Origin: Hyphomonas sp.
GTDB taxonomy: Bacteria; Pseudomonadota; Alphaproteobacteria; Caulobacterales; Hyphomonadaceae
Reading direction: 5' to 3'
Assembly (NCBI GenBank): GCA_017792365.1
Contig: CP051229.1
Coordinates: forward strand, 1,798,001-1,862,000
Length of the DNA stretch: 64,000 nucleotides
Of the stretch, positions 24,263 through 31,195 are shown in pieces (position 1 is the first letter of the stretch; the number at the start of each line of letters is the position of its first letter). Under the pieces are notes generated by a model that saw nothing but the letters and a program-made list of their open reading frames with translations, made no database searches and was not told where the DNA came from. Position numbers and translations under genes: made by a program.

Positions 24263-24628
24263 TTATTTCCGGTTGAGCAGAAGCGACAGGGCGATGCCTG
24301 CGCCAAGCGCGATACCGACAGCCGGAAGCGGGTTGCTGCGGATACGGTCTTCCACACGGCCGCTCGCCGATTTCAGCTTCTTGCTGGCTTCGTCCGCCGC
24401 CGCCTTGCTGAACTCAACGCCCTTCTCGAGGCTCTCGCGGGTTTTCGCGTCGGCGAACTTGCTCGAATGCTTCAGCAGCGACGTTACGTCCGTGCGAAGG
24501 GCTTCGACGTCCTTGCGCAGGGCGCTGACATCATCGTCGATCGCACTGCGCGCCGACTTTGCCGCCGCCGCGTTTGCTTCCTTGTCCATTGATCCATTCC
24601 CTGTCGATGTGGAGAATGCCGTAGCCAT
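24263..24628 (-). CDS. DUF883 (ElaB/YqjD-like) membrane-anchored stress protein
   Basis: A 121-residue protein with a long amphipathic helical region (DVSALRKDVEALRTDVTSLL and RESLEKGVEFSKAAADEASK). It ends in a C-terminal membrane anchor (IRSNPLPAVGIALGAGIALS), the typical DUF883 layout. Escherichia coli relatives tether ribosomes to the inner membrane in stationary phase. The start at ATG 24628 is chosen because GGAGGG lies 6 bases upstream. A perfect GGAAC-N16-CGTT promoter lies about 45 bases before the start, so it is probably part of the general-stress regulon together with the downstream membrane gene. Confidence 0.87.
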   Translation of the reverse strand: MATAFSTSTGNGSMDKEANAAAAKSARSAIDDDVSALRKDVEALRTDVTSLLKHSSKFADAKTRESLEKGVEFSKAAADEASKKLKSASGRVEDRIRSNPLPAVGIALGAGIALSLLLNRK

Positions 24629-24671: not shown

Positions 24672-24696
24672 AACGCTGCTCCCCGAACACCGTTCC
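24672..24696 (-). promoter_or_regulatory. EcfG-type (general stress sigma) promoter
   Basis: On the minus strand GGAAC (24696-24692), a 16-base spacer and CGTT (24675-24672) match the alphaproteobacterial EcfG consensus exactly. It drives the DUF883 gene and the small membrane gene behind it. Confidence 0.75.
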
Positions 24697-24712
24697 ACGA
24701 CCCCCAAGATTC

Positions 24713-24737
24713 CGAACAAGTTGGCTCATCATGCGTT
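24713..24737 (+). promoter_or_regulatory. EcfG-type promoter, one mismatch
   Basis: CGAAC (24713-24717), a 16-base spacer and CGTT (24734-24737) differ from the GGAAC-N16-CGTT consensus only in the first base. It lies back to back with the promoter at 24672-24696 and about 32 bases before the 59-residue membrane-protein gene. Confidence 0.55.
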
Positions 24738-24768
24738 GTTTCCATGCAACCGACGCAGGAGGACACAC

Positions 24769-24948
24769 GTGACCGGGACGACGAACACCAAGACAACGCA
24801 CCAGAATAACGCCGACGATCACGCGACGCTTGAGCCCGAAGAAGCGCGCCAGGCGACCCGCGGCAACGGGATCTGGATCATCCTGACGGCGTCGACTGCA
24901 TTGGCGGTTACGGTGCTGCTCGTCCTGTTCGGAGGGGTGCTGGGTTAA
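24769..24948 (+). CDS. Small single-helix membrane protein
   Basis: A 59-residue protein starting at GTG 24769, with AGGAGG six bases upstream. The N-terminal half is hydrophilic (NTKTTHQNNADDHATLEPEE). The C-terminal half is one membrane helix (GIWIILTASTALAVTVLLVL) ending in FGGVLG. No family is recognised. The near-consensus EcfG promoter upstream and the position opposite the DUF883 gene suggest a stress-induced tail-anchored protein. A strong terminator follows. Confidence 0.75.
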   Translation: MTGTTNTKTTHQNNADDHATLEPEEARQATRGNGIWIILTASTALAVTVLLVLFGGVLG

Positions 24949-24976
24949 CAGCCCAGCTCAGCCACAGCCACAAAAC

Positions 24977-25013
24977 AAAACGCGGCCAGCGCACTGCTGA
25001 CCGCGTTTTTTCG
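24977..25013. terminator. Bidirectional terminator between the small membrane gene and phyR
   Basis: AAAACGCGG (24977-24985) pairs with CCGCGTTTT (25001-25009), with an inner CAGC/GCTG stem. A T-run follows on the plus strand and an A-rich flank lies on the left. It can end both the plus-strand gene at 24948 and the minus-strand phyR transcript. Confidence 0.8.
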
Positions 25014-25030
25014 TGTTTGCGATACGCCGC

Positions 25031-25816
25031 CTAGGCGGCGACGCGATTGGGATGGAAGAACAGCGCCTGCCCGATCGCAGCCTTCACCGTACTCTCCTGG
25101 AACGGCTTGGGGATCAGATAGGTCGGCTCCGGGCGCTCGCCCGTCAGCAGCCGCTCCGGGAACGCCGTGATGAAGATCACCGGCACGTCCAGCGTCTCCA
25201 TGATCGCGTTCGCGGCGTCGATGCCGGATGAATTGTCCGCCAGCTGGATATCGCAGAGGATGAGACCCGGCGGATTGGACTTCGCCATCGCAATCGCCTC
25301 GTCCCGCGTCGTCGCATTGCCGGTGACCGAATGCCCCAGATCGCCCACAAGGCTCTCAAGGTCGGCGGCGATGATCGGCTCGTCCTCGATGATCAGCACC
25401 TTGGTCGCCAGATCGCCCTCGATCTCACGCAGCGCGTCGTCGATCAGCTGCTGAACCTGATCTTCGCTGGTCTGCAGGATCTTTGCGGCGTCCGCGCGGT
25501 CGAACGACTCAAGCGATGTCAGGAGGAACGCCTGCCTGTGGATTGGAGCCAGAGCCTGCAGGCGCTCATCGTGAGCCGGCCGCGGCTTGGAATCACGCGT
25601 CTCCAGCTCGGCGCCGGTCGTACCCCAGATCGCATGAAAGAATTTGTACAGCGCAACGCGCGGCGACAGGCTCTCGTCCAGCTCGCTCGGATCTTCGGCA
25701 AGCGCGGTAAGTGATGCCCGGATATATGCGTCCCCGCTTTCCTGAGAACCCGTCAAAGCCCGTGCATACCGCCGCAGGAACGGCAGATGCGGACCAAGTT
25801 GTTCAACAAGACTCAT
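25031..25816 (-). CDS. phyR: General stress response anti-anti-sigma regulator PhyR
   Basis: Response regulator controlling the alphaproteobacterial general stress response. The N-terminal sigma-factor-like domain (residues about 1-130: EQLGPHLPFLRRYARALTGS and LTSLESFDRADAAKILQTSE) mimics EcfG. The C-terminal receiver domain carries the acidic pair in VLIIEDEP, the phospho-acceptor Asp in LILCDIQLADNSSG, and the conserved FITAFPERLLTGERPEPTYL and IPKPF elements. Phosphorylated PhyR binds NepR and so frees EcfG. ATG 25816 is preceded by GAGGG; GTG 25822 is an alternative start. It is divergent from nepR-ecfG and has its own EcfG promoter. Confidence 0.97.
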   Translation of the reverse strand: MSLVEQLGPHLPFLRRYARALTGSQESGDAYIRASLTALAEDPSELDESLSPRVALYKFFHAIWGTTGAELETRDSKPRPAHDERLQALAPIHRQAFLLTSLESFDRADAAKILQTSEDQVQQLIDDALREIEGDLATKVLIIEDEPIIAADLESLVGDLGHSVTGNATTRDEAIAMAKSNPPGLILCDIQLADNSSGIDAANAIMETLDVPVIFITAFPERLLTGERPEPTYLIPKPFQESTVKAAIGQALFFHPNRVAA

Positions 25817-25852
25817 CGACACCCTCTGTGACCCGTTAATTCAACCCGCTCA

Positions 25853-25877
25853 AACGTTCATACACCGGTATGGTTCC
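25853..25877 (-). promoter_or_regulatory. EcfG-type promoter of phyR
   Basis: On the minus strand GGAAC (25877-25873), 16 bases and CGTT (25856-25853) match the consensus exactly. Spacing to the phyR start gives a leader of about 30 bases. It predicts positive autoregulation of phyR by EcfG. Confidence 0.8.
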
Positions 25878-25907
25878 ACGTCCGAGAAAAAATCATGTTT
25901 TTGCGCC

Positions 25908-25932
25908 GGAACCCTTGGCAGATCGGTGCGTT
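25908..25932 (+). promoter_or_regulatory. EcfG-type promoter of nepR-ecfG
   Basis: GGAAC (25908-25912), a 16-base spacer and CGTT (25929-25932) match the EcfG consensus exactly. It lies about 36 bases before nepR and back to back with the phyR promoter, so the switch genes are predicted to activate one another. Confidence 0.8.
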
Positions 25933-25967
25933 GTGACAGTCTGCAACGGGTAACATCTGATAAAACA

Positions 25968-26210
25968 ATGGAATCTTCGCGTACGTCGATGAGCAATCAG
26001 TCGCCGAACAGCCCTGAAGACCAGGGCGGCCGTCGCCAGCGCACCAAGCGTCTGGGTGATCAGCTGCGTCGTATCTACGACAGCGTGGCGAATGAAGGCG
26101 CGCCAGACGACTTTCTGCAATTGCTCGATCAGGCCGATCAGAAACGTGGGGCCGGCGGCAAGGATACAGGTATGTCCGGTCGTCGGAACGACCCGTCGGG
26201 GGAGGAATAA
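25968..26210 (+). CDS. nepR: Anti-sigma factor NepR
   Basis: Small protein of 80 residues that sequesters the sigma factor EcfG until phosphorylated PhyR takes its place. The core NepR helix pair is visible as KRLGDQLRRIYDSVANEGAP followed by DDFLQLLDQAD, matching the family pattern (GxxLRxxYxxxxxExxPxxFLxLLxxL). The N-terminus is disordered and polar. The start is ATG 25968; ATG 25989 is also possible, and neither has a strong ribosome site. It lies 5 bases before ecfG, the standard nepR-ecfG operon. Confidence 0.92.
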   Translation: MESSRTSMSNQSPNSPEDQGGRRQRTKRLGDQLRRIYDSVANEGAPDDFLQLLDQADQKRGAGGKDTGMSGRRNDPSGEE

Positions 26211-26215
26211 CTCCT

Positions 26216-26821
26216 TTGACAGTGGCAACCGATCTCGATGACGAGCAGTTCAAGGCCGAACTGATCGAACTGATCCCGCATCTGCGCGCCTTTGCGCGCT
26301 CGCTTTGCGGAAACGCCGCGCAGGCTGACGATCTGGCTCAGGACGCAATGCTCAAGGCATGGAAGGCGCGCGAGAGCTACGAGCCCGGCACAAACCTCAA
26401 GGCGTGGTCCTTCACCATCCTGCGCAATCTCTTCTATTCCGAAAAACGCCGCTCGTGGCGTAGCCAGCCGCTCGACCCGGAAGTCGCCGAGGCGACGCTG
26501 GTCGCTAACGACAATCCGGACGCCGCTATCGAGTTGCTTGCGCTGCGCAACGCGCTCTCAAAACTTCCCGACGATCAGCGCGAAGCCCTGATCCTCGTCG
26601 GCGCCGGCGGTCTCACCTACGACGAGGTCGCGGAAATCTGCGGCTGCGCGATCGGCACCATCAAGAGCCGCGTCAGCCGCGCCCGCAAGACGCTGCTGGA
26701 GCTGGTCGACGAGAACTCCACCGGCTTCAACTCGGACCCGGATCTGCAGGCCTCCGACACGCTTGAGGAAATCATGGCCGAGGCCCACGCCCTGTCCGGA
26801 GGTGCACGTGGATCCGGCTGA
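26216..26821 (+). CDS. ecfG: ECF sigma factor EcfG (general stress)
   Basis: RNA polymerase sigma factor of the ECF15/EcfG group, 201 residues. Sigma region 2 lies in LIPHLRAFARSLCGNAAQAD and DLAQDAMLKAWKARESYEPG. Region 4 lies in LPDDQREALILVGAGGLTYD and EVAEICGCAIGTIKSRVSRA. It directs polymerase to GGAAC-N16/17-CGTT promoters, seven of which are recognised in this window. The start is read at TTG 26216; GTG 26222 is possible. It follows nepR and overlaps the kinase gene by 14 bases. Confidence 0.95.
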   Translation: MTVATDLDDEQFKAELIELIPHLRAFARSLCGNAAQADDLAQDAMLKAWKARESYEPGTNLKAWSFTILRNLFYSEKRRSWRSQPLDPEVAEATLVANDNPDAAIELLALRNALSKLPDDQREALILVGAGGLTYDEVAEICGCAIGTIKSRVSRARKTLLELVDENSTGFNSDPDLQASDTLEEIMAEAHALSGGARGSG

Positions 26822-28502
26822 GGCCGGCGAACTAAAGCACAGGTCCGGATCTCTTCGCACCCGCCTGCTGCTGGTCCTCGCCATAGCCCTGACGCCGATC
26901 CTCGCCCTTTCCGCCATACGCGCATATTTCGACGCGCGCTCGTCAATGGAACAGCGGCGGGACGAACTGGTCCTCATCGCCGATCGCGCCATCGACCGTG
27001 TCGAACAATACGTCTCCACCTCCGAAACCATCCTTGAAGTGTTCCAGGACGAAATCGCCGCCGGCCGCTGCCAGCGCGTCTACATGGTTCTGCAGGAACA
27101 CCTGGGACCACTGACGAATGTCGTGCGCGTTTCACCAGAAGGCATCGTGGATTGTTCCGCGGCAGGCGCGGTAGGCACGCCCATCGCCAATCCAGCCTGG
27201 ATCGAAAGCCTGCGCAGCGAGCGCAATTCCGTTCGAACCGACGCCTTCTACGGAGAAGCCAGCGGTGAATGGCTGTTTGCGATCTTCCGGCGCAACAACG
27301 ACGCGACGGGGCAGTTTGCAGGCGCTTCCGGCCTCGGCCTGTCGGTCTCAAGTCTCGTCGAACTATTCAACGCCGACCCCGACCTTCCTGAAGATGTCCA
27401 GCTCGCCCTCACGGACCTTGATGGCGAAGTCTTCGGTCAGGTCGAAATGCCGAAATTCGACCGCCGCTGGATCGAACGCGCCAACGCCAATCCGGGAGGC
27501 GCGCTGGTTGTCGTGCGCGAAGAAGACGGATCATCTCTGGATCTGGTCATCCAGCCCGTCGGCACCGAAGGCATATTCGCCCTGATCACCCGTCCTTCGC
27601 CGGGGCTGTTCGACGAACTGACGCTCAACCCCGTCGGGATGTTCGGGCTTCCGCTTCTCACCTTCTTCGGCGCCCTGATCGCCGTCTGGATGGCGGTCGA
27701 CGGGCTCGTCCTGCGCTGGCTGGCGAGGCTGCGACAGGTCGCGATTCACTTTGCATCCGGACAATACGATTATCGCCCGCGCCGCTCCTTCGACTCTGCG
27801 CCGGCAGAAATCAGCCGCTTCGCCTCGACGCTGACCCAGATGGCCAGCCGCATCGCCGAGCGCGACCGCTCGCTGCGCGAAGCCCTGCGCACTCGCGACG
27901 CCGCCGTCCGCGAGATCCATCACAGGGTCAAGAACAACCTTCAGATCGTCACCAGCTTCCTCAATCTCCAGAGCCGCCAGGTGAAGGAACCGGCCGCGCA
28001 GGAAGTGCTGGCCGCCGCCCGCCACCGCATCGACGCGCTGTCGATCGTCCACCAGACGCTCTACCAGCACGAGCGCCTCGATACGGTCCACCTCAAACCC
28101 TTCCTCGAGGGCCTGCTGCGCCACCTCAGCGAAGCGATGGGCATGTCGGAATCCGGGATCAGGTTCGACTGGGAGATCGAGAACGTCGAACGCGGCTCCG
28201 ACGACGCCATCCCCATCGCCCTGTTCGTCCTTGAAGCCGTGACCAACGCGGTGAAATACGCGTTCGAGAACAATGGCGGCGTCATCAAGGTCAGCCTGAA
28301 GCGCACCGAAGAGCACATCGTGCTGACGGTCCGCGACGACGGCGTCGGCATCGCCGAAGACAAGGCCGCTTCGCCACAGACCGGGCTGGGCTCGCGCCTC
28401 ATGAATGCGTTCGCAAAGCAGCTGCGCGCAAAACTTACGATTGAGTCAGAAAAAGGCGACGGCGTCGCCGTGAAGCTCGAACTTCCGATTGCAAGCGCCT
28501 GA
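26808..28502 (+). CDS. Sensor histidine kinase (HisKA_2 family), probable PhyR kinase
   Basis: Membrane histidine kinase of about 564 residues. One helix lies near the N-terminus (LLLVLAIALTPILALSAIRA), then a periplasmic sensor domain, then a second helix (FGLPLLTFFGALIAVWMAVD), a HAMP-like linker, and the kinase core. The phospho-acceptor His is in REIHHRVKNNLQIVTSFLNL, the HisKA_2/HWE-type motif, and the ATP-binding N box is FVLEAVTNAVKYAFENNGG. Kinases of this type next to phyR-nepR-ecfG phosphorylate PhyR. The start is GTG 26808, with GGAGGT just upstream, inside the end of ecfG. Confidence 0.92.
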   Translation: MDPAEAGELKHRSGSLRTRLLLVLAIALTPILALSAIRAYFDARSSMEQRRDELVLIADRAIDRVEQYVSTSETILEVFQDEIAAGRCQRVYMVLQEHLGPLTNVVRVSPEGIVDCSAAGAVGTPIANPAWIESLRSERNSVRTDAFYGEASGEWLFAIFRRNNDATGQFAGASGLGLSVSSLVELFNADPDLPEDVQLALTDLDGEVFGQVEMPKFDRRWIERANANPGGALVVVREEDGSSLDLVIQPVGTEGIFALITRPSPGLFDELTLNPVGMFGLPLLTFFGALIAVWMAVDGLVLRWLARLRQVAIHFASGQYDYRPRRSFDSAPAEISRFASTLTQMASRIAERDRSLREALRTRDAAVREIHHRVKNNLQIVTSFLNLQSRQVKEPAAQEVLAAARHRIDALSIVHQTLYQHERLDTVHLKPFLEGLLRHLSEAMGMSESGIRFDWEIENVERGSDDAIPIALFVLEAVTNAVKYAFENNGGVIKVSLKRTEEHIVLTVRDDGVGIAEDKAASPQTGLGSRLMNAFAKQLRAKLTIESEKGDGVAVKLELPIASA

Positions 28503-28505
28503 GGC

Positions 28506-28700
28506 TTACTGCCCGGCAACCATCGTAACGCTCGCCTCGTCAAGAATGGCAGAAGCTTCCAGTTCGGCCGCAACCTTGGCCGTCTGCTCGATGCGTTGAT
28601 CCAGATCAGTCGTCTCAGGTTCCAGCACGGTGCTGTCTTCCGCGCACGCGGCAAGCACAACCACACCAACCCAGAATGCACTCCACGGTCGCAATCGCAT
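28506..28700 (-). CDS. Small lipoprotein, predicted EcfG-dependent
   Basis: A 64-residue protein with a signal peptide and a lipobox (FWVGVVVLAAC), then a short acidic helix (TDLDQRIEQTAKVAAELEAS). No family is recognised. It converges on the histidine-kinase gene with a 3-base gap. A perfect EcfG-type promoter (28729-28753) lies 29-53 bases before its start, inside the 3' end of the metallophosphoesterase gene. This makes it a stress-induced envelope lipoprotein by inference. Confidence 0.72.
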   Translation of the reverse strand: MRLRPWSAFWVGVVVLAACAEDSTVLEPETTDLDQRIEQTAKVAAELEASAILDEASVTMVAGQ

Positions 28701-28719
28701 GACAGCTTCCCTTCACCTG

Positions 28720-29529
28720 TCAGGAAGGAACGGTGTCGCTTTCGGTTGGTTCCAGCTGCGATCGGGTCCAGCCGCCCATCGGCGTTGCACGCATCCCATC
28801 TTTCTCGCAGGCCATGCTCCACGCGCTGATCTTGTCATCGCCAACGTCGATCACATTGAAACTCGGCGGCGCCGCCCGCAGCCGCTGTGAAAGCGTCCCG
28901 CACGTCAGGTTGAGATATCCGCCCGCCTCCCCGCGCCACACTTCGGCGGAAGGCGTGTGAACGTGCCCGGTCAGCAGCAATTGCGCGCCGCTGTTTTCCA
29001 TCAGGGCGCTGGCCCGCTGCCCCCTGCGCGTCGAAATCCGCAGCGGCGCATCGGCGGGCGAGCGAAACGGATGATGACAGGCGATCACCCCCAGAAGTCC
29101 CTGCGCCTCGTCCAAATGCTTCAGCGCATCCGTAAGGTCATCGAGATCGACCGACCCTTCGGCCCAGTTCCGGCGCGCCTGCCATCCCCGCGACGTATTG
29201 ATCGCGGTAATGCGCGCGCGCTCCAGGTCGATCGACATCCGCCGCTCTTCGAAATAGCGCCAGAACCGGCGAAACGGCGCCAGCGCGCGCGCCGACATGT
29301 CGAGCAACGGCGTATCGTGATTGCCCGGCGTCACCAGCACCGGCACGGTAAACTGCTCCAGCCACGTGGCGGCGGCGTTGAATTCGGAGCGTTTGCCGCG
29401 CTGACTGAGATCGCCGCACACCACGATGCCGTCGACGTCGGAGCCGGAAATCCACTCCGCCGACATCTCCAGCGCTCTTGAGTCTTCCACGCCGAAGTGC
29501 AGATCAGCCATCTGCACCAGACGCGTCAT
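28720..29529 (-). CDS. Metallophosphoesterase (calcineurin-like)
   Basis: Soluble 269-residue phosphoesterase with the full set of metal-binding motifs in order: QMADLHFG, VVCGDLSQRG, VTPGNHD, IACHHPF and LTGHVHTP. These bind a two-metal centre for hydrolysis of phospho-mono- or diesters. The substrate is unknown; the CpdA-like layout would allow cyclic-nucleotide phosphodiesterase activity. Its start overlaps the end of the diacylglycerol-kinase-like gene by ATGA, so the two are co-translated. Confidence 0.92.
   Translation of the reverse strand: MTRLVQMADLHFGVEDSRALEMSAEWISGSDVDGIVVCGDLSQRGKRSEFNAAATWLEQFTVPVLVTPGNHDTPLLDMSARALAPFRRFWRYFEERRMSIDLERARITAINTSRGWQARRNWAEGSVDLDDLTDALKHLDEAQGLLGVIACHHPFRSPADAPLRISTRRGQRASALMENSGAQLLLTGHVHTPSAEVWRGEAGGYLNLTCGTLSQRLRAAPPSFNVIDVGDDKISAWSMACEKDGMRATPMGGWTRSQLEPTESDTVPS
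28729..28753 (-). promoter_or_regulatory. EcfG-type promoter inside the metallophosphoesterase gene
   Basis: On the minus strand GGAAC (28753-28749), a 16-base spacer and CGTT (28732-28729) match the consensus exactly. It lies within the last codons of the upstream gene and is well placed for the small lipoprotein gene at 28700. Confidence 0.68.
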
Positions 29530-30386
29530 GGCGCCGCCAGAACATGCGCTGCAACCGGCATGAAATCGATCAGGGACCCCGACCTCAACTTCAACGGCTC
29601 CCCATCCAGCGTCGTCTCGATTTCATCCTCCTTGGCATGGAAGATCCGCAACGCTTCCCATTGATGATATTCCACGCCGCGCGCCAGTCGCCAGTCGCCC
29701 AGCGCGATCTCCATCCCCACGCCAGCCAGCTCAGCCAGATTGTCAGGATCGATCCAGCCAACGTCCAGACGGGCGTCGCCCGGCTCCGGCACGAAAGCCG
29801 CCAATGCTGTCGCCACGCCTTCCATGCCGATATCCTCGCCACGCAATTCATGGAAGGCAAGGCTCGTAAGGTCGAACGCGCCGACCTCAGCAGCCTGCTC
29901 CACAGCCGTAATCGGCCTGCCGTCGCGAATGGCTTCGCGCGCCCGCGACAGCCCGACAAGCTCGCCAAACATCGCGCCGACATAAAAGCGGCGCTCCCGG
30001 TTTACGCATCCCGCGCCGATGGGTTCGATCTTGCCCGCATCGACCGCGCCGCGCAGGCATTCGCGCCAGTCGATCGCCGTCCCCTCCGGCACCCCATGCA
30101 CGCGCCGGTGCAACAGATTCATCGTGCCGCCCGGCAACGGAAGAATGGGCGGACCCTTCGGCCCAACCGTTTCCAGCGAACAGGCAATCGTCCCGTCACC
30201 GCCCCACACGGCGAGGATGTCAAATCCGTCCTTCACCGCAGCTGCAACCTGCTCCCGCAGGTTCTCGGGCTCGACTTTCACGATCTCGCATTTCGCCCCG
30301 ACCTCCTCGGCCAGGGCCATCAGGTCCGCATCGGGATCGTCCGGAACGCTGCCGGCGTGCGGATTGATCAAAACCTTCAGTTTCAT
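29526..30386 (-). CDS. Diacylglycerol kinase family lipid kinase
   Basis: A 286-residue protein of the DAGK/YegS catalytic family. The nucleotide-binding signature is in DILAVWGGDGTIACSLE, followed by ILPLPGGTMNLLHRRVHGVP, which matches the GGxxN-type motif of lipid and sphingosine kinases. The family phosphorylates membrane lipids; the exact acceptor is unknown. It is co-translated with a metallophosphoesterase (4-base overlap), suggesting a paired kinase/phosphatase function in lipid or phosphate metabolism. Confidence 0.9.
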   Translation of the reverse strand: MKLKVLINPHAGSVPDDPDADLMALAEEVGAKCEIVKVEPENLREQVAAAVKDGFDILAVWGGDGTIACSLETVGPKGPPILPLPGGTMNLLHRRVHGVPEGTAIDWRECLRGAVDAGKIEPIGAGCVNRERRFYVGAMFGELVGLSRAREAIRDGRPITAVEQAAEVGAFDLTSLAFHELRGEDIGMEGVATALAAFVPEPGDARLDVGWIDPDNLAELAGVGMEIALGDWRLARGVEYHQWEALRIFHAKEDEIETTLDGEPLKLRSGSLIDFMPVAAHVLAAP

Positions 30387-30427
30387 GTCACAGTCGCCAG
30401 ACCATCACGTCACAATACTGGAATGAA

Positions 30428-30460
30428 AACGACCCGCCAGCGCGCAGCCGACGGGCCGTT
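30428..30460 (-). terminator. Terminator after the entericidin-like gene
   Basis: On the minus strand AACGGCCCG and CGGGTCGTT (30460-30452 and 30436-30428) pair with one G-T wobble and run into TTTTC. It lies 50 bases downstream of the entericidin-like gene. Confidence 0.65.
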
Positions 30461-30509
30461 TCAAGCTCTACGAACGCATGCGCATCACGCATGGAATTCG
30501 ACGAGAAAC

Positions 30510-30647
30510 CTACCGAGCCTCGTTCGCCGTTTCCTCGATTTCCTCACCCACTTCCTGGGTGTCCTGGCCGACGCCCTCAACGGTGTTGCAAGCTGCAGCG
30601 ATCAGCGCCACGGCGCCAGCAACGAAAGACTTCACAACAAGGTTCAT
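30510..30647 (-). CDS. Entericidin A/B family lipoprotein
   Basis: A 45-residue lipoprotein: signal MNLVVKSFVAGAVALIAAAC with the lipobox cysteine, followed by the entericidin signature NTVEGVGQDTQEVGEEIEET. Entericidins are tiny envelope lipoproteins, often under stress sigma factors. AAGGAG lies 6 bases before the ATG. The perfect EcfG-type promoter at 30680-30704 gives a leader of about 25 bases, so control by the PhyR-EcfG switch is predicted. Confidence 0.9.
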   Translation of the reverse strand: MNLVVKSFVAGAVALIAAACNTVEGVGQDTQEVGEEIEETANEAR

Positions 30648-30679
30648 ATCGAACTCCTTCTGACTTAGGTCAGTCGAGT

Positions 30680-30704
30680 AACGCAGTCGCATTCTCGCGG
30701 TTCC
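30680..30704 (-). promoter_or_regulatory. EcfG-type promoter of the entericidin-like gene
   Basis: On the minus strand GGAAC (30704-30700), 16 bases and CGTT (30683-30680) match the consensus exactly. It is back to back with the promoter at 30727-30752. Confidence 0.78.
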
Positions 30705-30726
30705 CGATGGCGGAAAAACTTCGCAC

Positions 30727-30752
30727 GGAACCGAGCGCCAAGATCCATCGTT
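30727..30752 (+). promoter_or_regulatory. EcfG-type promoter of the DUF1328 gene
   Basis: GGAAC (30727-30731), a 17-base spacer and CGTT (30749-30752) fit the allowed 16-17 spacing. It lies 44 bases before the DUF1328 membrane-protein gene. Confidence 0.75.
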
Positions 30753-31118: not shown

Positions 31119-31195
31119 GCGCCCGTAGCTCAGCTGGATAGAGCACCAGACTACGAATCTGGGGGTCAGAGGTTCGAATCCTTTCGGGCGCGCCA
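31119..31195 (+). tRNA. tRNA-Arg (anticodon ACG)
   Basis: A complete cloverleaf of 77 bases. The acceptor GCGCCCG pairs with CGGGCGC, discriminator G, and encoded CCA at 31193-31195. The D arm is GCTCAGCTGGATAGAGC. The anticodon stem is CCAGA/TCTGG with loop CTACGAA (anticodon ACG, read as inosine-CG). The T arm holds GGTTCGAATCC. ACG identifies arginine. Confidence 0.97.

Follow-up and report, generated by a model that had tools for sequence, protein, structure and literature searches.

How far does the reach of a bacterial stress switch extend into the genes that lie around it? The question is raised by a stretch of 64,000 nucleotides of a Hyphomonas genome (hereafter the window; positions 1,798,001-1,862,000 of 3.40 Mb), in which the genes of the PhyR-NepR-EcfG switch are flanked by genes for small envelope proteins and in which the pattern GGAAC-N16/17-CGTT, the box of EcfG (ECF15-type) sigma factors, recurs. 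An initial annotation had placed seven such boxes in 6 kb. Analysis of the window and of its relatives indicates that, very probably, these boxes are genuine EcfG promoters and the locus, an autoregulated one of the general stress response, has expanded into a conserved island, since the boxes are conserved ahead of orthologous genes in 26 related phyR loci.

All seven boxes were recovered at their predicted coordinates and strands (Table 1), six as exact matches and one, ahead of the gene for a small protein termed EARQ, with a single mismatch. The spacer is of 16 bases in six of them and of 17 in one, as had been proposed, and the last T of the -10 element lies 43, 31, 36, 35, 28, 32 and 43 bases, in order of position, from the start codon, in agreement with the 28-45 bases of the annotation. 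Six of the boxes form three back-to-back pairs around the switch, shared by the DUF883-like and EARQ genes, by phyR and nepR, and by the entericidin and DUF1328 genes, the respective -35 elements being 16, 30 and 22 bp apart. The remaining box is contained in the last codons of the metallophosphoesterase-like gene and is not intergenic.

Such a concentration is exceptional. The window holds eight exact matches (spacer 15-18) versus 2.1 expected, a number reached in none of 100 shuffles, and the island alone has six in 6,081 bp versus 0.13 expected. The initial annotation had made its case depend on a local enrichment over the rest of the genome, which is indeed what was found: stretches of 6,081 bp clear of the island hold at most two boxes across the 3.4-Mb genome, likewise at most two for the reversed pattern, and none of 20,000 runs of uniform placement of 74 points gave six in that length. 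Genome-wide, the excess of exact boxes is modest (74 versus 56 for the reversed pattern, spacer 16-17). When boxes were restricted to those that are intergenic with a called start no more than 250 bp downstream, 41/74 were retained versus 5/56 reversed controls, the gene calls deriving from a home-made caller that was trained on the window and is poor for relatives of lower GC content; therefore, about 35 promoter-like boxes exceed chance, those of the island included. Five of the 41 belong to the island, whose sixth exact box was scored as genic, and 36 lie outside the window, so that most of the regulon is dispersed. Back-to-back pairing belongs to the island. Indeed, as a general habit of the regulon it was rejected, as only one of 33 promoter-like boxes elsewhere in the genome has a divergent partner no more than 100 bp away (one mismatch allowed), a number that matches the control level (1.08).

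The conservation of the boxes was evaluated in L031-L056, the 26 loci with the greatest similarity to the window, where gene starts were projected from the best tblastn matches and the 220 bp upstream were scanned, with 300 permuted patterns as controls for exact boxes and 60 for boxes with one mismatch. Exact boxes precede every recovered orthologue of the DUF883-like (18/18) and entericidin (18/18) genes, and are found ahead of the diacylglycerol-kinase-like (DGK-like) gene in 11/16, DUF1328 in 11/22, nepR in 8/25 and phyR in 4/26 cases, the control means being 0.04-0.08 (highest 5). Allowing one mismatch, boxes occur at nepR in 25/25, DUF1328 in 22/22, phyR in 11/26 and the YqjE-like gene in 2/16; here the control means are 0.7-1.6 (highest single control 7), and 0.8-1.3 for the DUF883-like, entericidin, nepR and DUF1328 genes. 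No exact box was found within this distance of the orthologues of ecfG (0/26), phyK (0/26), the metallophosphoesterase-like gene (0/15) or the YqjE-like gene (0/16). Taken together, 131 exact boxes are present in the 399,910 bp of these loci, where the controls average 8.4 and reach 22 at most. Among them are 25 exact back-to-back pairs, distributed over 19 loci (control mean 0.01, highest 1), and none face to face; the 16.8 kb of one locus, L034, are free of exact boxes. Between 6 kb upstream of the phyR start and 4 kb downstream of it, there are 0.29-0.64 boxes per kb; farther downstream the density drops to 0.11 and finally to 0, with none past 6 kb on that side and few past 6 kb upstream. 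Thus, the notion of a conserved EcfG-linked stress island is strongly supported, the orthologues being boxed in relatives and the density peaking within about 6 kb of phyR. In the other 54 phyR loci, mostly of sphingomonads, the peak is lower and narrower. The promoter at a coding end is retained as well: at the end of the metallophosphoesterase-like gene in 16 relatives, some of them close to each other, an exact box lies at -36 to -12 from the stop codon in six, overlaps the stop in one and follows it directly in two, for a total of 9/16 within -36 to +30, and seven relatives are without one.

The EARQ family requires separate treatment, as its box in the window (CGAAC) would carry little weight alone. 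The 59-residue protein has no Pfam or NCBIfam match, and for 14 members of the family no Pfam family emerged, the NCBIfam names being limited to two unrelated ones, each for a single member. Thirteen relatives at phyR loci have in common an (E)ARQG motif ahead of one hydrophobic stretch, and all of them are encoded directly downstream of phyR on the opposite strand. With a 14-row profile, EARQ was detected in 48/61 genomes of the family of the window and, in part weakly, in 21/47 genomes of other families of the order; across the class, a three-row profile gave matches in 3/190 genomes and a 25-row profile in 28/240, many of them weak. Boxes within 160 bp upstream were then counted at 39 distinct loci, 13 of them phyR-linked (43 best-match loci less one without a match, one without a start codon and two duplicates). 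Ten loci have an exact box and 24 one with at most one mismatch, the chance levels being about 0.04 and 1.3 (highest single control 10, in the unlinked set). In particular, 17/26 unlinked loci are boxed with at most one mismatch, and therefore EcfG control of the family looks to extend away from phyR. Several of the mismatched boxes start with T or C, like that of the window, which family evidence of this kind makes a credible candidate promoter. In the class-wide set, 11/27 loci have a box with at most one mismatch versus 1.16 by chance (highest control 7), and five of the 27 have PhyR nearby; two of 29 loci without a start codon were left out of this count, and at least L267-L269 look like false matches that were counted nonetheless. 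The Hyphomonas genome itself has a second, more distant EARQ-type gene (G000:C1:285251-285406), with a weak one-mismatch box 67 bases upstream.

Several observations weigh against the interpretation of the locus as an autoregulated island of EcfG promoters. The EARQ box departs from the consensus at the first base of the -35 element. Autoregulation appears uneven, with a phyR box in only 11/26 relatives even when one mismatch is allowed, and the exact DUF1328 box is present in only half of the 22 cases. The DUF883-like and YqjE-like assignments rely on Pfam scores below the cut-offs. Finally, the 26 loci are related, so that the counts are not independent events, and the orthologues are best tblastn matches.

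The linkage of the small genes to phyR was examined in 61 genomes of the same family, with orthologous PhyR called at E <=1e-50 and DUF1328 at E <=1e-8. PhyR is present in 46/61 genomes and DUF1328 in 45 of these 46; DUF1328 was not found at this threshold in any of the 15 genomes without orthologous PhyR, some of which are incomplete assemblies. The co-occurrence is significant by Fisher's test (2e-13), the genomes being related and the value uncorrected for kinship. In 43/45 genomes DUF1328 lies within 10 kb of phyR, the two exceptions having it on a different contig; in no case (0/45) was it found far away on the contig of phyR. Entericidin is found within 10 kb in 40/45 genomes and, in the other five, on a different contig; seven genomes without orthologous PhyR have it too. 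Among the other 54 phyR loci, mostly of sphingomonads, 28 also have entericidin next to phyR, and 25 of these 28 genes have a box with no more than one mismatch (controls: mean 0.97, highest 11), only two of them exact. In most of the 25 the -10 element is CATT, which occurs as a natural variant of this element in Sphingopyxis (PMC7083833). EARQ lies within 10 kb of phyR in only 12/43 genomes that have both, and in ten it is on the same contig at a distance of more than 80 kb, which argues against a strict requirement for nearness of this gene to phyR.

Genomes that have no orthologous PhyR also differ in their boxes: among 25 genomes of the family, the number relative to control has a median of 0.40 in six without PhyR versus 1.14 in 19 with it (p = 0.01). 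Eight of the 15 PhyR-less genomes keep a distant EcfG-like protein (41-45% identity) and may have another stress switch, while the other seven have none at E 1e-30. In three PhyR-less genomes (G240, G243 and G255), two EcfG-like genes (42-45% identical) lie back to back about 270 bp apart.

Phosphorylation of PhyR is a step of the partner switch. At this locus, a stress signal would lead a HisKA_2/HWE kinase to phosphorylate PhyR, whose sigma-like domain would then bind NepR and free EcfG, and the freed EcfG would guide RNA polymerase to the seven boxes. Feedback on phyR and nepR-ecfG-phyK would come from the central pair, and the other five boxes would represent the output, directed to the envelope through the DUF883-like/YqjE-like pair, EARQ, the lipoprotein, entericidin and DUF1328. 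The switch of EcfG, the anti-sigma factor NepR and the antagonist PhyR is well established (PMC4814048).

Whether the clustering itself has a function is a different matter. One tentative and rather doubtful proposal is that of a "home island" held by selection, in which envelope effectors would be kept within a few kb of ecfG on back-to-back promoters, with DUF1328 and EARQ as core effectors and not passengers. If this were true, the first EcfG made or freed there would reach its neighbours first, and paired divergent promoters would fire together. An alternative, which is a real possibility if still an unlikely one, is that the boxes are real and the clustering functionless, only the phyR/nepR-ecfG pair belonging to the switch and the neighbours lingering through slow decay of synteny. 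This is favoured by the fact that the 26 loci and 61 genomes represent one family or nearly so, by the scattered positions of EARQ and by the dispersion of most of the regulon. However, gene order and strand have been reshuffled among relatives, with DUF1328 on either side of phyR at 1.1-6.7 kb and the DGK-like and metallophosphoesterase-like genes inverted in L048-L051, yet proximity and boxes stay. The constant nearness of DUF1328 to phyR on shared contigs, the failure to find it in the 15 genomes without orthologous PhyR and the sphingomonad entericidins beside phyR, outside the group, also speak against mere inertia.

The EcfG assignment of the boxes has in turn been weighed against other readers. 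Recognition of some boxes, above all the CGAAC, DUF1328 and lipoprotein ones, by another ECF sigma factor or a general regulator appears very improbable. The -35 elements of ECF sigma factors resemble each other and the genome encodes five other sigma-like matches, but all boxes have the EcfG consensus and spacing, and those five proteins are only 26-34% identical to EcfG, the only close one in the genome. Chance matches in a GC-rich genome can be dismissed almost completely as an explanation. The low genome-wide ratio of the exact pattern to its reversed control, only 1.3, would favour them, but the cluster of six was unseen in the random placements, the back-to-back pairs far exceed their controls and the conservation of boxes before orthologues in several genera refutes chance.

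The initial annotation had also predicted a stress island made of small membrane proteins and lipoproteins rather than enzymes, a view that stands in the window and fails in general. In the window, the boxed genes encode small membrane proteins, lipoproteins and regulators (with the PhyK-like kinase behind ecfG), and no enzyme gene outside the switch has a box. In particular, no box was found for the DGK-like gene with one mismatch allowed, the metallophosphoesterase-like gene has no exact box of its own, and a strong hairpin parts both from entericidin. However, the DGK-like gene has an exact box in 11/16 relatives, and therefore the exclusion of enzymes is true locally only; in two Henriciella, moreover, a boxed gene for 88 residues lies directly 5' of the DGK-like gene. 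Elsewhere in the Hyphomonas genome, boxes are found ahead of genes for Ku, aldehyde dehydrogenase, DJ-1/PfpI and DinB_2 proteins, as indicated by a Pfam run on 20/33 regulon proteins outside the island, of which the longer ones were truncated after residue 130. The Ku-type gene (L014, at 1,169 kb) has its exact box 25 bases upstream. Two further proteins (L006 and L028, at 481 kb and 1,571 kb) resemble DUF883 by eye, with no Pfam family, and have exact boxes 33 and 36 bases upstream of their genes.

Comparison with known systems helps to separate the familiar from the new. Divergence of phyR and nepR-ecfG under EcfG promoters is the most frequent arrangement in Alphaproteobacteria (PMC4814048), and the locus of the window follows it. 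Unlike the usual locus, it has boxed small-protein genes on both flanks, two extra back-to-back pairs and a phyK-like gene that overlaps the end of ecfG. In Sphingomonas melonis Fr1, gene #1442, a "predicted small secreted protein", has GGAAC...CATT 30 bases before its start, loses expression without ecfG (log2 -4.7) and is numbered beside phyT (#1443), nepR (#1444) and phyR (#1445) (PMC6599016). The entericidin beside phyR in S. melonis AS2.3 has nearly the same box. By label, number and box, we infer that #1442 is the entericidin beside phyR; EcfG dependence of a phyR-adjacent entericidin would thus have been measured in that strain. The Fr1 targets also include Ku and aldehyde dehydrogenase, as in the Hyphomonas genome, and CGAAC -35 elements are listed, that of #3278 with a good score, whereas the available parts of that report describe no island with DUF1328, DUF883-like and EARQ genes (PMC6599016).

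Similar proteins are found under other sigma factors. In Salmonella, ecnB and ytjA (DUF1328) are among the small open reading frames controlled by sigma-S (PMC5437024), and, since two of the island types are thus represented, unrelated general stress sigma factors seem, by analogy, to control small membrane proteins of the same kinds. In Pseudomonas aeruginosa, PA3040-3042, of the DUF883-YqjE type, are under the envelope-stress sigma factor AlgU (PMC11302039); the order of YqjD-like and YqjE-like genes is that of the window and the sigma factor differs, the likeness being one of family names and weak Pfam scores only. The same source cites Escherichia coli YqjD as a membrane protein that binds ribosomes (PMC11302039). 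The enterobacterial RpoS regulon offers the same protein types under another sigma factor. Its small-protein genes are not known to be clustered at the sigma gene.

All in all, the phyR/nepR-ecfG pair is textbook knowledge and the surrounding island is less known. The novelty lies in how far the island extends and how constant it is, in the tight association of DUF1328 with phyR, in the pairing restricted to the island, in the retention of a promoter at the end of a coding sequence and in the EARQ family. No title or abstract opening naming such an island in Hyphomonadaceae was found in a search that covered little of the subscription literature. The island amounts to a short list of conserved small envelope proteins near the switch (DUF1328, entericidin, the DUF883-like/YqjE-like pair, EARQ and the lipoprotein slot), several of which become testable as direct parts of the stress response, and the same holds for whether nearness to the sigma gene matters.

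Table 1. Boxes, genes and hairpins between 23.8 and 31 kb of the window, in order of position (DGK, diacylglycerol kinase; aa, amino acids).
Feature	Coordinates	Strand	Remarks
YqjE-like membrane protein, 136 aa	23849-24259	-	Phage_holin_3_6 22.9 bits (cut-off 28.4); 3' of DUF883-like gene
DUF883-like (ElaB/YqjD type), 121 aa	24263-24628	-	AGGAGG ahead of ATG at 24628
Box, exact, N16, ahead of DUF883-like gene	24672-24696	-	pair 1, left half
Box, CGAAC-N16-CGTT, one mismatch (-35 base 1), ahead of EARQ gene	24713-24737	+	pair 1, right half
EARQ protein, 59 aa, one hydrophobic stretch	24769-24948	+	tail to tail with phyR
Terminator-like hairpin, convergent EARQ/phyR gap	24977-25009	.	14 pairs, found on - strand
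phyR, response regulator with sigma-like domain	25031-25816	-	NF006623 364.6 bits (cut-off 240); PDB 3n0r 2.8e-95
Box, exact, N16, ahead of phyR	25853-25877	-	pair 2, left half
Box, exact, N16, ahead of nepR-ecfG-phyK	25908-25932	+	pair 2, right half
nepR, anti-sigma factor	25968-26210	+	PF18557 49.1 bits (cut-off 25.7); PDB 3t0y chain B
ecfG, ECF sigma factor	26216-26821	+	ECF domains above cut-off
phyK-like HWE/HisKA_2 sensor kinase	26808-28502	+	reading frame overlaps ecfG end
Lipoprotein (by eye), 64 aa	28506-28700	-	slot of small acidic lipoproteins in relatives
Metallophosphoesterase-like gene	28720-29529	-	PF00149
Box, exact, N16, ahead of 64-aa lipoprotein	28729-28753	-	unpaired; inside 3' end of metallophosphoesterase-like gene
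DGK-like gene	29526-30386	-	PF00781
Hairpin and U tract, entericidin/DGK-like gap	30415-30475	-	-28.6 kcal/mol, z -3.8; missed by simple terminator scan
Entericidin-type lipoprotein, 45 aa	30510-30647	-	PF08085 30.6 bits (cut-off 23.3)
Box, exact, N16, ahead of entericidin gene	30680-30704	-	pair 3, left half
Box, exact, N17, ahead of DUF1328 gene	30727-30752	+	pair 3, right half
DUF1328 membrane protein, 56 aa	30796-30966	+	PF07043 54 bits (cut-off 27)

The identity of the switch genes is supported to different degrees. The sigma-like and receiver domains of PhyR (PF22029, PF22233 and PF00072) all score above cut-off, and the closest named proteins are from Henriciella (76 and 75% identity), a Ponticaulis metagenome-assembled genome (74%) and Hyphomonas (at most 74%). 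NepR is recognized by its PF18557 domain and by its position beside an ECF sigma gene and divergent from phyR, its score against NF051865 being 37.1 bits, below the cut-off of 100. The closest NCBIfam model of the sigma factor gives 187 of 219 bits, below cut-off, and the best PDB match, 5uxx, is deposited only as an RNA polymerase sigma factor; the locus, the boxes and this match are consistent with EcfG. The kinase has HisKA_2 and HWE domains above the Pfam cut-off and reaches 377.5 of the 750 bits required by the PhyK model NF051872 over nearly its full length, hence the term PhyK-like.

Among the neighbours, the entericidin passes the Pfam cut-off and shows a lipobox cysteine, with AAACNTVEG in its sequence, and DUF1328 is likewise assigned by Pfam. 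The DUF883-like protein scores 26.3 of 27 bits for DUF883_C and 17.8 of 25.4 bits for DUF883, and it is termed "-like" on the basis of these values, as is the YqjE-like protein on that of its own score (Table 1). The hairpin in the entericidin/DGK-like gap is likely a terminator; the simple terminator scan, which found the hairpin between EARQ and phyR, gave nine sites overall versus 7.7 by chance. A tRNA-Arg gene (ACG, 31119-31195) lies just past the DUF1328 end of the island. A mobile island adjoining this tRNA gene was considered and rejected, as the GC content of the block (0.61-0.63) is near that of its surroundings (0.62-0.68) and much of the block recurs in relatives, no integrase search having been made. 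Likewise, no plasmid record covers 80% of the block: 142 records match it, and coverage is 7% in each of the five that were listed, three of them matching over annotated phyR-sigma-nepR genes.

The relatives also display variations of the promoter arrangement. Helical phasing of the pairs was rejected, since the gaps range from 10 to 91 bp with no common period by eye; a gap of 13 bp recurs in L031, L032, L033 and L043. Two tandem EcfG boxes precede nepR in L048, L049 and L051, and one in L050, and in L048-L051 the DGK-like gene and entericidin share a back-to-back pair. In L035, L040, L046, L047 and L052, the left half of the back-to-back pair at the DUF883-like gene is directed, to the left of that gene, towards one that on visual inspection resembles a Crp/FNR regulator, so that the island may control a regulator there.

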